From: Nocardioides sp.
Lineage (GTDB): Bacteria; Actinomycetota; Actinomycetes; Propionibacteriales; Nocardioidaceae
DNA: 64,000 nt
NCBI RefSeq assembly: GCF_030149505.1
Contig: NZ_JASBRN010000001.1
Coordinates: 1 to 64,000, forward strand
Direction of reading: 5' to 3'
Shown: in pieces, positions 626 through 41,941 of the stretch
Position numbering within the stretch: the first letter of the stretch is position 1
Layout: every line of letters begins with the position of its first letter
Made by a program: the position numbers and the translations under genes
Notes under the pieces: model-generated
Seen by the model: the letters and a program-made list of their open reading frames with translations, nothing else
Databases searched by the model: none
Told to the model about the DNA's origin: nothing

Positions 626-631
626 GGTGAA

Positions 632-654
632 AGTATAGTCGAACACACGTTCGA
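632..654 (-). promoter_or_regulatory. SOS (LexA) box and -10 box of truncated HNH gene
   Basis: TCGAACACACGTTCGA at 639-654 is a perfect TCGAAC-N4-GTTCGA inverted repeat, the actinobacterial LexA operator consensus. A minus-strand TATACT occupies 632-637, six bases before the ATG. The operator abuts the -10 box, so LexA binding should block transcription. The same arrangement recurs at 39721-39743. Confidence 0.85.
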
Positions 655-901
655 TAGACAGTGTTTCCCCAGGTCAGGTCCACTTTTTCGCGACATTCTT
701 GCCGTCCGATCGAAGCCCAGCCCGAGCGAGCACCCCAGGCAGGGGCGAGGCTGGAGCGGACCGCAACCAAGAAGCCCAAGCGGCGCCGAGGGCGACCACG
801 CCTTCTCGAAATCCAGGACCTGCTGCGGCGCGAACCCGCTACGACCCACCAACGGCGACCCAGGGAGCAACCCTGGTAACAGCAGGGCGACCGGCGTACG
901 C

Positions 902-941
902 GGTCTCGACGACGGCTCGCTGGCGCTCGCCTGCTCGACCA
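902..941 (-). repeat. Dispersed palindromic element, copy 1
   Basis: A 40-base element begins TGGTCGAG and ends GTCGTCGAGACC on the minus strand, with AGCGAGC repeats between. The same element occurs at 39437 and 40613, and related ones at 6762, 17011 and 37877. Here it marks the far end of the conserved HNH upstream module. Confidence 0.75.
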
Positions 942-39413: not shown

Positions 39414-39436
39414 GAGGCGTCAGCGGCCCCCACCGC

Positions 39437-39473
39437 TGGTCGAGGCGAGCGCCAGCGAGCCGTCGTCGAGACC
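39437..39473 (+). repeat. Dispersed palindromic element, copy 5 (class A)
   Basis: TGGTCGAGGCGAGCGCCAGC…GTCGTCGAGACC, nearly identical to the element at 902-941, at the same place relative to the HNH gene. Confidence 0.75.
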
Positions 39474-39720
39474 GGGTACGCCGTTCGCCCTGCCGTCTCC
39501 TGTGGTTGCTCCCCGGGTCGCCGTTGGTGGGTCGTGGCGCGTTCGCGCCGCAGCAGCTCCTGAATTTGAGGAGAGCGTGCTCGCCGTGGGTGCCACCTGG
39601 GCTTCTTGGTTGCGCTTGCCTCGATGTCGCCCTGCGCTGGGGTGCTCGCTTCGGGCGGGCTTCGATCGGACGGCAAGAATGTCGTGAAAAAGTGGGTCTG
39701 ACCTGGGAAAACACTGTTTT

Positions 39721-39743
39721 TCGAACGTGTGTTCGACTATACT
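39721..39743 (+). promoter_or_regulatory. SOS (LexA) box and -10 box of HNH gene
   Basis: TCGAACGTGTGTTCGA (39721-39736) is a perfect LexA-type operator. TATACT (39738-39743) ends six bases before the ATG. The layout is identical to the truncated copy at 632-654, which argues that LexA control is selected. Confidence 0.88.
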
Positions 39744-39749
39744 TTCACC

Positions 39750-41219
39750 ATGTCCACCAGCCCCCTCCTCGACGCGATCCGCGCCGCCAAGGCGCGTGAG
39801 GACGACGCGGCCCGCGAGCTGCTGATCGGGGTCGCGCAGTGGGCGGATGCCCACACGACGGGTGCGTTGATGCCGGACCTGTACGGCACCTACTCCCACC
39901 CCGACGACGACGCCTACGACGCCGCGGAGTCGGCATGGGTGTCCCGGTTCGGCATGCCCGGCGCCGACACGATGCTCGAGCTGGCCGGTGCCGGTGCCCC
40001 CGAGGTCTCCGACTTCGCCGTCACCGAGCTGTCCACCGCGCTCGGCCGGACGCGTGAGTCCGGCCGCCTCCTGGTCGGCGACGTCGTGGAGGCCAAGCAC
40101 CGCCTCCCCAAGGTCTGGGCCCGACTTCTCGCCGGGCAGGTCACCGCCTGGCGGGTACGCCGCCTGGCTCAAGCCACCCGCAGCCTCTCCGCCGAGGCCG
40201 TGGCGTTCGTGGACGCCCAGATCGCCCACGTGATCCACACCGCCGGCCCCGTCACCGTCGACCGCCTCGTCCTCGAAGCATCCGCCCGGTTCGACCCAGA
40301 GTCGGTCGAGGTCGCCGAGTGCGACACCCGCGCCAACCTCTACTTCGACCTCGACCTCGCCACCCCCGCCACCTCGGTCGGCACCGCCTCCGCCGTCACC
40401 GCCGACGGGCTGCTCGACCGAGCCGACGCCGAAGACCTCGAGCACGCCATCCGCCACATCGCCCACCAACTCCTGGCCGACGGCTCCACCGACACCCTCG
40501 CCGTCCGCCGCGCCAAGGCCCTCGGCTACCTCGCCCGCGGCCAAGACCCCCTCCCCGACACCGACCCCGAGGGGACTGAGGCCGAAGCGACCGAGGCCGA
40601 GGCGACCGAAGATGGTCGAGCAGCGAGCGCCAGCGAGCGTCGTCGAGACCGCGCAACCCACACGCGCACCGCACCCCGCCGGGTCGTGGTCCTGACCGTC
40701 CACCTCTCCGACGCCGCGCTGACCGGCGCACCCCAGGTCGACTCTGTCACCGGCACGCTCGGCCTCGACCTCGCCCGCGTCGAGAACCACCGCCAGCTTC
40801 TCACCGCCGACACCATCCGCGAGTGGTGCGGGGTTCCTGGCACCCAGGTCATCGTCAAGCCCGTCATCGACCTGGCCGACACCGTCGCGGTGGACTCCTA
40901 CGAGGTCCCCGACCGGATCGCGGCCCGCGTGAAGCTTGCCAGGACGACGTGCTCGTTCCCGCACTGCCGTAGGCCCGCGGAGTCCGCCGACCTCGACCAC
41001 ACCGTCGAGTACGTCCCACCCGACCGAGGCGGACCACCCGGCCAGACCAGCACCGAGAACCTCGCCCCGCTCTGTCGGCACGACCACCGCGCCAAGACCC
41101 ACCCCTCACCAGCAGGGAGACCCTGGGCCGTCCGCGGACTCAGTCCAGGCCACTGGCTCTGGACCAGCCCCCACGGCCACCGCTACCTCGTCCACCCAGA
41201 CGGCACCACCCCACTCTGA
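39750..41219 (+). CDS. DUF222 / HNH endonuclease family protein (13E12-like)
   Basis: A 489-residue complete copy. DUF222 occupies about residues 10-280. An Ala/Glu/Arg-rich linker follows, in which a palindromic repeat (40613-40650) is read in frame as GRAASASERRRDR. The C-terminal HNH motif has CSFPHC for zinc, DHTVEY with the metal-binding His and NLAPLCRHDHRAK. Members of this family are multicopy in actinobacteria, and the mycobacterial 13E12 genes are known to be LexA controlled. Biological role unknown: domesticated nuclease, DNA-damage effector or mobile-element relic. No transposase or target-site duplication is visible here. Confidence 0.9.
   Translation: MSTSPLLDAIRAAKAREDDAARELLIGVAQWADAHTTGALMPDLYGTYSHPDDDAYDAAESAWVSRFGMPGADTMLELAGAGAPEVSDFAVTELSTALGRTRESGRLLVGDVVEAKHRLPKVWARLLAGQVTAWRVRRLAQATRSLSAEAVAFVDAQIAHVIHTAGPVTVDRLVLEASARFDPESVEVAECDTRANLYFDLDLATPATSVGTASAVTADGLLDRADAEDLEHAIRHIAHQLLADGSTDTLAVRRAKALGYLARGQDPLPDTDPEGTEAEATEAEATEDGRAASASERRRDRATHTRTAPRRVVVLTVHLSDAALTGAPQVDSVTGTLGLDLARVENHRQLLTADTIREWCGVPGTQVIVKPVIDLADTVAVDSYEVPDRIAARVKLARTTCSFPHCRRPAESADLDHTVEYVPPDRGGPPGQTSTENLAPLCRHDHRAKTHPSPAGRPWAVRGLSPGHWLWTSPHGHRYLVHPDGTTPL
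40613..40650 (+). repeat. Palindromic element inside HNH coding sequence, copy 6
   Basis: TGGTCGAGCAGCGAGCGCCA…GTCGTCGAGACC, nearly identical to the intergenic class A copies, but located inside the HNH gene and kept in frame. It sits in the variable linker between DUF222 and the HNH motif. Confidence 0.75.
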
Positions 41220-41374
41220 GCACCACCCGCTCGCAGCCCGACCACCACCCGATGGCCGGGCTACCAGCACGCCCCCGGCCGGACGGCGCTGGCCCAGGTG
41301 CGAACGGAGCGAGCTACGAGGCCTCGCACTCGTCGTACGACGTGTCCGCCAGCCGTCGTGGCAGGCTGCTGCCG

Positions 41375-41941
41375 GTGAGCCCGCTTCCGACCAGCCCCTG
41401 GCCCGTGTGTCGTGATGGCCTGCTGTTCCGGGAGCCCACGGAGGCCGACGTCCCGGTCCTGCTGACCTTCCGCAACGCCCCCGAGGTCAACCACTTCATG
41501 GTGCGCACCTCGGTCGAGCCCGACGACCTGCGGCGGGAGGTGCTGGCGATCCCCGACAGCCCGACGGACTTCTCATGCGTCGTCGAGCGCGACGGCGAGG
41601 TCGTCGGCCTCGGATTCCTCGACGTCGTCGACGGTGCCGGGCAGCCGGGCCACCCGACCGGCACCGACGGACTGATCGGCTACATCGTGCGGCCAGGGCA
41701 CGACGGCGCCGGTGTCGCGACCGCCACGGCGCGTGCCCTCCTGGCCGCGGCCTTCGACGGGCTGGGCCTGCGGCGGGTCACGGCCGCGGCCAACCTCGAC
41801 AACCACGCCTCCGTGCGGGTGCTGGAGAAGGCCGGCATGCGGCGGGAGCGGCACGAGGTCCAGGCGCTGTGGCACCGCGAGCTCGGCTGGCTCGACGAGG
41901 TGGGGTACGCCTTGGTCGCCGAGGAGTGGCACGGCGGGTGA
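41375..41941 (+). CDS. GNAT family N-acetyltransferase
   Basis: A 188-residue acetyltransferase of the RimJ/RimL-like branch. It has the acetyl-CoA loop IGYIVRPGHDGAGVATATARALL (motif A, R/Q-x-x-G-x-G/A) at about residue 100 and the C-terminal NLDNHASVRVLEKAGMRRE typical of this branch. GTG chosen because CAGGCT lies seven bases upstream (41362-41367). The stop overlaps the PIG-L start (GTGA), so they form a pair; an amino-sugar substrate is possible but unproven. Confidence 0.82.
   Translation: MSPLPTSPWPVCRDGLLFREPTEADVPVLLTFRNAPEVNHFMVRTSVEPDDLRREVLAIPDSPTDFSCVVERDGEVVGLGFLDVVDGAGQPGHPTGTDGLIGYIVRPGHDGAGVATATARALLAAAFDGLGLRRVTAAANLDNHASVRVLEKAGMRRERHEVQALWHRELGWLDEVGYALVAEEWHGG

Follow-up and report, generated by a model that had tools for sequence, protein, structure and literature searches.

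A LexA-boxed HNH gene in Nocardioides sp. is part of a dispersed unit of about 1.85 kb with signs of mobility and of exchange between copies

Introduction

Dispersed, multi-copy HNH genes are known from Mycobacterium tuberculosis as the 13E12/REP13E12 repeats, and some of them are reported to be under the control of LexA. The SOS box of M. tuberculosis is quoted as TCGAAC-N4-GTTCGA, and 10 HNH-domain genes of the 13E12 family have been placed in a hypothetical LexA-controlled repair system (PMC4181829). Five putative HNH nucleases of this species are reported to respond to mitomycin C in a RecA-dependent manner (PMC8151990), and the HNH-like genes Rv3074 and Rv3776 were upregulated 29- and 22-fold, respectively, with moxifloxacin (PMC7911356). 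The link to LexA is therefore not new, it is already known for HNH genes of this kind, and the statement of the initial annotation that mycobacterial 13E12 family genes are among the LexA-controlled genes agrees with the first of these reports. A separate line of work concerns the exchange between copies. Across 151 M. tuberculosis genomes, 87 gene-conversion events were detected at REP13E12 loci, which formed a high-burden network and to which, according to the authors, no function has been assigned (PMC13061034). The text of that report contains neither "SOS" nor "HNH".

Here we analyzed a stretch of 64,000 bases from Nocardioides sp. (the window), with which contig C28 (67,132 bases) of an assembly of 88 contigs and 4.17 Mb begins. 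It contains two genes of this kind, and they were found to belong to a unit with 11 copies. The unit shares with the REP13E12 repeats the dispersed HNH genes, the same box, and frequent gene conversion. By description, not by sequence, it differs in its copy number, in having the box inside the unit, in its unit-specific leader block, and in the loss of site identity between near relatives. Among the papers listed in our literature searches, judged by their titles and the beginnings of their abstracts, we found no description of this unit in Nocardioides, nor of a mobile unit with defined ends that contains a box and a leader or of such a loss of site identity. Actinobacteria harbor many HNH repeats of the 13E12/DUF222 kind, for which no function has been defined, and LexA control and gene conversion, which have hitherto been separate facts, are combined here in a single unit with defined ends whose presence varies among relatives.

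Results and Discussion

Two boxed HNH genes in the window

Two perfect TCGAAC-N4-GTTCGA palindromes, each adjoining a TATACT -10 box six bases before an ATG, had been described in the initial annotation, and both were found at the claimed coordinates, with TTCACC as the six bases at both sites (Table 1). Copy a is on the minus strand and has its ATG at 625-623. In copy b on the plus strand, a single C separates the box from TATACT and the ATG starts at 39750. The transcript of copy b is probably leaderless. At up to two mismatches, seven matches to the box are present in the 64 kb, only the two palindromes being perfect; 100 shuffles of the window yielded a mean of 2.08 and a maximum of 5 matches.

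Table 1. Features of the two copies in the window.
Feature	Position	Strand	Basis
HNH gene copy a, 5' part (208 aa), cut by contig end	2..625	-	90% aa identity to copy b
-10 hexamer TATACT, copy a, 6 bases before ATG	632..637	-	read directly
LexA/SOS box, copy a, perfect palindrome	639..654	-	motif scan
Leader block GTTCGCGCCGCAGCAGGTCCT, copy a	815..835	-	pattern search
REP-like palindrome, unit 5' edge, copy a; 0 mismatches to the consensus used	902..940	-	alignment and pattern search
REP-like palindrome, unit 5' edge, copy b; 5 mismatches ungapped	39435..39473	+	alignment and pattern search
Leader block GTTCGCGCCGCAGCAGCTCCT, copy b	39541..39561	+	pattern search
LexA/SOS box, copy b, perfect palindrome, directly before -10	39721..39736	+	motif scan
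-10 hexamer TATACT, copy b	39738..39743	+	read directly
HNH nuclease gene copy b, complete, 489 aa	39750..41219	+	Pfam, protein search, alignment
Helical region, residues 70-266, DUF222-like, weakly like ParB/Noc/KorB DNA-binding domains	39957..40547	+	models, profile comparison
Shortened REP-like palindrome, in frame and translated, in the variable linker of copy b	40614..40650	+	read directly
HNH domain, residues 401-449	40950..41096	+	Pfam, alignment
Conserved 3' tail of unit, end ...GGCCGGGCTACCAGCACGCC; similarity among copies stops there	41220..41273	+	alignment

The predicted protein

The gene had been labeled DUF222/HNH. The HNH part of this label stood, as the protein of 489 aa matches Pfam HNH (PF01844) with 23.4 bits at a cut-off of 21.4. 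The DUF222 part did not, as the whole protein has no match to DUF222 (PF02720) in Pfam, and residues 68-185 alone reach 18.2 bits, below the cut-off of 24.4. The layout of DUF222 followed by HNH in Pfam is nevertheless the same as that of this family, and in a set of 35 aligned proteins (A1) 19 match DUF222 and 17 match HNH at E <= 0.01. D416 and H417 are invariant in this set, and N437 is conserved in at least 90%. With the two PF02720 proteins of the genome (C51, C36) set A1 aligns in the HNH part only, and its matches to PDB sequences were weak, the best being an IscB with E 0.046.

An AlphaFold model of the full-length protein, built with 35 sequences, has a mean pLDDT of 75.8, and residues 70-266 folded alone have a pLDDT of 83.6. 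Foldseek alone gave no match with E < 0.001 for either model. The structural matches below come from a second-look aligner, and with Z < 8 throughout they are under the level at which matches of this tool are safe. The predicted HNH fold resembles McrA-type enzymes, namely TagI (Z 6.5, 85 residues, rmsd 2.8), ScoMcrA (Z 5.7), and EcoKMcrA (Z 5.5). Residues 16-183 of the full model match the DNA-binding domains of ParB, Noc, and KorB with Z up to 5.6, and for the model of residues 70-266 ParB, Noc, KorB, and Spo0J are among the top rows (Z 4.4-5.7), with M. xanthus ParB at the upper end (86 residues, rmsd 3.5), although the unrelated regulator FasR (Z 5.6) ranks second. With hhalign the same stretch was aligned with ParB at E 0.019 and a probability of 2.4%. 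On the basis of these models the protein is likely to combine a helical domain that reads a site with an HNH cutter. None of the PADLOC models matches at E <= 0.01.

Copies in the genome and their boxes

Eleven copies of the HNH gene are scattered over the assembly, a number that follows from 11 leaders, i.e., starts, matching 11 three-prime ends. The protein search yielded seven whole copies (one reported in two pieces), together with two five-prime and four three-prime pieces that end with their contigs and a single fragment on C21, with 80-100% identity over all finds. The leader pattern occurs 11 times in the genome, always perfectly, versus three times for a reversed control, and these sites are the nine readable copies and the ends of contigs C30 and C31. 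The broken copies stop at stretches that are identical between copies over 137-141 bases. Because they end with the contigs, at identical stretches, and because 5' and 3' halves are balanced, the breaks were taken as assembly breaks, and the idea that copies broken at residues 164, 208, and 319 are shuffled halves was rejected.

All nine copies with a readable start have the box, seven of them perfectly and two (C43 and C85) with one mismatch. Among more distant HNH/DUF222-type relatives with a readable start, five of eight have it (C12:51429, C19:43970, C65:1587, C46:81695, and C58:566), while no box at <=1 mismatch was found upstream of the two PF02720 genes on C51 and C36 and of C85:48986. 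The genome-wide scan that had been proposed as a check thus gave a box for 14 of 17 HNH/DUF222-type genes with a readable start, a count in which three of the boxed genes (C12:51429, C19, and C65) were first detected via their boxes and from which other boxless families could be missing. The outcome named as refuting in the initial annotation, namely that most other copies lack the palindrome, therefore did not occur. A sequence search with the C19 protein recovered the same three genes plus a piece on C5, but no boxless whole relative. The pieces on C5, C64, C66, and C21 have no readable start and are outside the 17 genes.

The genes on C12, C19, and C65 form a second set of SOS-boxed HNH genes (L059, L060, and L055) with proteins of 454-477 aa and the further piece on C5. 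Their proteins share 70-83% identity with one another and 22-24% with the window protein. A third type of HNH gene is represented by pieces only, at the ends of C46 and C58.

The motif in the SOS regulon

Genome-wide, the pattern occurs at 43 sites with <=1 mismatch, versus nine for a reversed control, and 17 of the sites are perfect. Twelve of the perfect boxes precede genes of this HNH family and two sister groups, two precede a dnaE2-type polymerase, one of which may serve a divergent gene, and one precedes an AlkB-type oxygenase. One-mismatch boxes precede lexA and recA and also uvrA and ruvC. The latter two were named by eye, whereas LexA, which is encoded in this genome, RecA, the polymerase, and the oxygenase were identified by Pfam. 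Since the motif is also present before lexA, recA, and the dnaE2-type polymerase, the in silico evidence supports that it is the LexA operator of this genome. By box count, HNH genes of this kind make up much of the SOS regulon.

A unit of about 1.85 kb with sharp ends

The similarity among the aligned copies starts at a REP-like palindrome roughly 290 bases upstream of the ATG and ends with ...GGCCGGGCTACCAGCACGCC, some 55 bases past the stop codon. No alignment was seen beyond these ends, the flanks are unrelated, and the edges are sharp. Box, gene, and conserved leader are thus parts of one unit of about 1.85 kb, and the aligned copies contain no partner gene that travels within it. In all 20 leaders of this genome, the near relative WLJH01, and G016, 18 of the 21 positions of GTTCGCGC-N-GCAGCAG-N-T-CCT are unchanged, as are all nine positions of a second leader element, GGTGCTCGC. 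Among the 23 sampled copies of G018, conspicuous conservation is limited to a CTTGTC-like hexamer upstream of the box, the promoter, and a GC-rich tail resembling a terminator.

A REP-like sequence is present at the 5' edge of the nine readable copies, its type varying among copies. Terminal inverted repeats or target duplications were not seen by eye, the junctions at empty sites being too diverged for placement at the level of single bases. Relatives of the protein were found in none of 50,697 phage records and in three of 72,556 plasmid records at E 1e-5.

Within nine mismatches, the REP-like palindrome GGTCGAGCAGGCGAGCGCCAGCGAGCCGTCGTCGAGACC occurs twice in the window, both times at a unit 5' edge (902-940, minus; 39435-39473, plus), and many more partial matches are present elsewhere in the genome. 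One locus (L323, C17:8856-9022) has tandem REP-like sequences with a spacing of 62 bases. An acetyltransferase-like ORF, judged by eye, adjoins copy b (window 41252-41941), and in G016 DNA similar to this region adjoins another unit copy (C39), which suggests that flanking DNA may also be exchanged between copies.

Presence and absence at matching sites

Comparison with relatives revealed matching sites at which one genome has the unit and another lacks it. At the C79 site the flanking genes are 2262 bp apart in this genome, compared to 12 bp in G013, 22 bp in G010, 34 bp in G008, 75 bp in G004, 91 bp in G002, and 158 bp in G014, and intermediate distances were found in G018 (655 bp) and G009 (1289 bp). 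In G016 both contigs end in unrelated sequence. At the C28b site, which is in the window, the gap is 3241 bp and comprises the unit of about 1.85 kb and about 1.4 kb with other ORFs. The site is also occupied in G016, while the gaps are 49 bp in G008, 52 bp in G012, 66 bp in G018, 135 bp in G009, 216 bp in G005, and 281 bp in G007. The C43 site measures 2415 bp here and is occupied in WLJH01, versus gaps of 101 bp in G009, 193 bp in G004, and 281 bp in G016. The reverse is true for the C77 site, which is occupied in WLJH01 (2.3 kb) versus 223 bp here. Four sites (C28b, C27, C85, and C28c) are occupied in the same orientation in this genome and G016. This genome and WLJH01 are draft assemblies, in which errors at repeats are possible.

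Not all sites argue for a mobile unit. The genes flanking the C79 site are at least 6 kb apart or on other contigs in nine other genomes of the genus, and at the C28b site gaps of 0.9-4.3 kb were found in G013, G010, G004, G002, and G014. The box is inside the unit in every readable copy, and matching sites of relatives differ in whether they hold the unit; the in silico evidence therefore supports that the box moves with the gene, as the initial annotation had proposed.

Exchange between copies and selection

Copies at the same site do not stand out as especially similar to each other. At the sites shared with G016, the flanks are about 78-88% identical, but the same-site copies have only 68-75% DNA identity, versus 86-90% for the best paralogues in this genome. 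The contrast is sharper for WLJH01, with which six sites are shared and whose flanks are 90-99% identical, on both sides at C28b and C43 and on one side or half at the other sites. At the unit edges the identity drops, to about 77-89% in most 150-base windows within the unit and lower in gapped windows. Overall the same-site copies are 82-91% identical and no closer than other copies. In seven comparisons at these six sites, the same-site copy ranked 1/7, 2/7, 7/9, 4/9, 4/9, 4/7, and 5/11 among the copies of this genome, and in the case with rank 1/7 the values were 88.3 versus 88.2 for the next copy. At C85 and C28b, a few 150-base windows are 98-99% identical to WLJH01 at the same site, and therefore replacement has been partial there.

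For the seven full copies of this genome the PHI statistic was 0.494, compared to 0.572 (sd 0.0074) for the null expectation, a value reached by none of 500 shuffles, and in eight of their 21 pairs the longest identical run exceeded that of 99% of the shuffles. By these measures the seven full copies are mosaics. The absence from sites in relatives, the same-site copies that are no closer than others, and the mosaic structure together argue that the unit moves and that copies convert each other. Judged from sequence comparison, the unit is a mobile, concertedly evolving repeat. The dN/dS ratios, 0.22-0.34 within the genome and about 0.58 versus a G016 copy, indicate that the protein is under purifying selection. 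Among relatives, three listed matches (G017, G018, and G019) have a stop codon, and in one G018 copy (L121) the ATG at the box is out of frame.

The box in relatives

A relative of the window protein is present in 32 of 39 genomes, this one included, and 3 of 24 genomes of the same genus (G001, G020, and G024) have no match. The loci used for the box counts were drawn from the better-scoring matches among those listed. In a profile search of genome contigs with a closer set (A3), the best 80 of 336 relatives were kept. Copies within one genome are related, so the counts do not represent independent events. The box is perfect in all seven copies fetched from WLJH01, has one mismatch at the four readable starts of G016, and is present in the 23 sampled copies of G018 (22 perfect, 1 with one mismatch). 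One mismatch was also found in all sampled copies of G007 (7/7) and G019 (5/5), two mismatches in G017 (6/8), G022 (3/3), G012 (2/2), and G031 (1/1), and a perfect box in one of three sampled copies of G023. Chance is expected to yield 0 perfect matches per zone of 600 bases, 0.003 at <=1 mismatch, and 0.05 at <=2 mismatches, and 693,314 positions of the fetched loci outside the tested zones contained no perfect match and four at <=1 mismatch. At <=2 mismatches, the box is absent from the sampled copies of G002 (0/6), G003 (0/2), G006 (0/2), G009 (0/3), and G014 (0/6), in which the best match has three or four mismatches.

The position of the box also varies. In this genome, G016, and G018 it is directly before the -10 box (TTGTCA-17-TAGAAT in a G018 example), whereas G007, G012, G017, G019, and G022 have degenerate matches that include the start codon, as does the perfect box of G023. 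A TAGAAT-like -10 box precedes many of these loci, and this is a different promoter layout with the same control, which was perhaps gained independently. The start codon within the SOS box was seen at the G023 locus (L160) and at the G007 and G019 loci as TAGAATCGAACACATG.... The boxless loci of G014 and G002 (L171-L176, L166-L168) have a conserved promoter-like stretch just before the ATG, GTGTCG...GGGAGAATCCAG.CATGGAT, and these copies may be under a different control.

It is thus very likely, as far as box sequence and position can tell, that the gene is controlled by LexA in this genome and its close kin. The wider proposal of a DNA-damage response shared across actinobacteria was not borne out, as none of the 19 sampled copies of five genomes of the same genus has the box, and genera outside Nocardioides were barely sampled. 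Five other genomes of the genus have the degenerate matches overlapping the start codon. As five sampled genomes have boxless copies, LexA control is not universal, and it is not general in the genus Nocardioides.

Proposed mechanism and alternatives

These observations can be combined in a model of a dispersed, mobile, self-homogenising, LexA-repressed HNH unit whose nuclease spreads its own gene when RecA is active, a model to which we give an even chance. The unit would consist of a leader with the conserved block, a LexA-repressed and probably leaderless promoter, the gene of an HNH nuclease whose helical N-terminal region resembles DNA-binding domains, and a short 3' tail. In the undamaged cell LexA would be bound in the promoter just before the -10 box and the gene would be shut. 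After DNA damage RecA filaments would form, LexA would be lost, and the nuclease would be made when recombination peaks. Its targets for cutting or nicking would be the existing copies of the unit or the sites that units enter, and RecA-dependent repair would copy one unit over another and, occasionally, into a new intergenic site. We infer LexA binding and induction, catalysis, the target, and a nuclease rather than plain RecA recombination as the driver of exchange. It weighs against the nuclease-driven model that conversion between repeats needs no dedicated nuclease and that, given the 19 boxless copies sampled in five genomes, expansion can do without LexA control. Homing endonuclease genes are comparable in that a nuclease gene spreads together with flanking DNA and is replaced by other copies, but the unit occupies many intergenic sites instead of one allele and is outside of introns and inteins. 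Ref of phage P1 is a single phage gene, unlike the multi-copy unit. It is a nuclease tied to RecA (PMC3973344), as is proposed here, and is compared by analogy.

A more specific version, which we regard as doubtful, is an SOS-gated selfish nuclease, in which the ParB-like N-terminal region would recognize the leader block GTTCGCGNNGCAGCAGNTCCT and the enzyme would cut there when LexA falls and drive both conversion and the entry into new sites. If true, the unit would act as a gene drive on the chromosome whose timing is set by the damage alarm of its host, which might account for the control by LexA as well as for the high rate at which 13E12-type repeats convert. The conserved leader block is a testable candidate target.

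The strongest competitor, possible though clearly short of an even chance, is that copies exchange merely because they are repeats, that the HNH protein made in the SOS response serves the cell in repair, e.g., by helping recombination as Ref does with RecA, and that the family grows by rare duplication. The purifying selection noted above fits this explanation, and so does the box, which groups the HNH gene with recA and dnaE2. Precedents are Ref, described as a RecA-dependent endonuclease that targets displacement loops (PMC3973344), and the LexA-controlled role in mismatch repair that has been proposed with the 13E12 HNH genes (PMC4181829). Yet a repair role offers no plain need for 11 copies in this genome, or for the 23 or more of G018, whose presence varies from site to site, and three of 24 genomes of the genus lack any match. 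It is unlikely that the protein is an anti-mobile-element or self-harm nuclease, i.e., that damage or phage induces variant HNH nucleases that degrade DNA and whose variation widens the range of targets. The likeness of the HNH region to McrA-type modification-dependent restriction enzymes (TagI Z 6.5) would be in line with such a function, and one of five overexpressed HNH nucleases, which may or may not be related to the window family, is reported to be lethal in M. smegmatis (PMC9416677). However, homogenising exchange narrows diversity instead of widening it, dN/dS is well below 1, the unit carries no partner gene, and it matches no PADLOC model.

The least probable explanation, to which we attach very little weight, is an unusual insertion sequence whose HNH protein inserts the unit beside REP palindromes. 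It would account for the REP-like sequences of differing type at the 5' edge of the nine readable copies, but these may simply be the unit's own end. Terminal repeats and target duplications were not seen, the full copies in this genome are open and under purifying selection, and relatives are missing from the phage records and confined to three of the plasmid records searched, all of which is at odds with an insertion sequence.

Additional perfect boxes

Two further perfect boxes of this genome, C85:178233 (L063) and C85:305948 (L064), are near ORFs without a Pfam match, which are candidates for new SOS genes.
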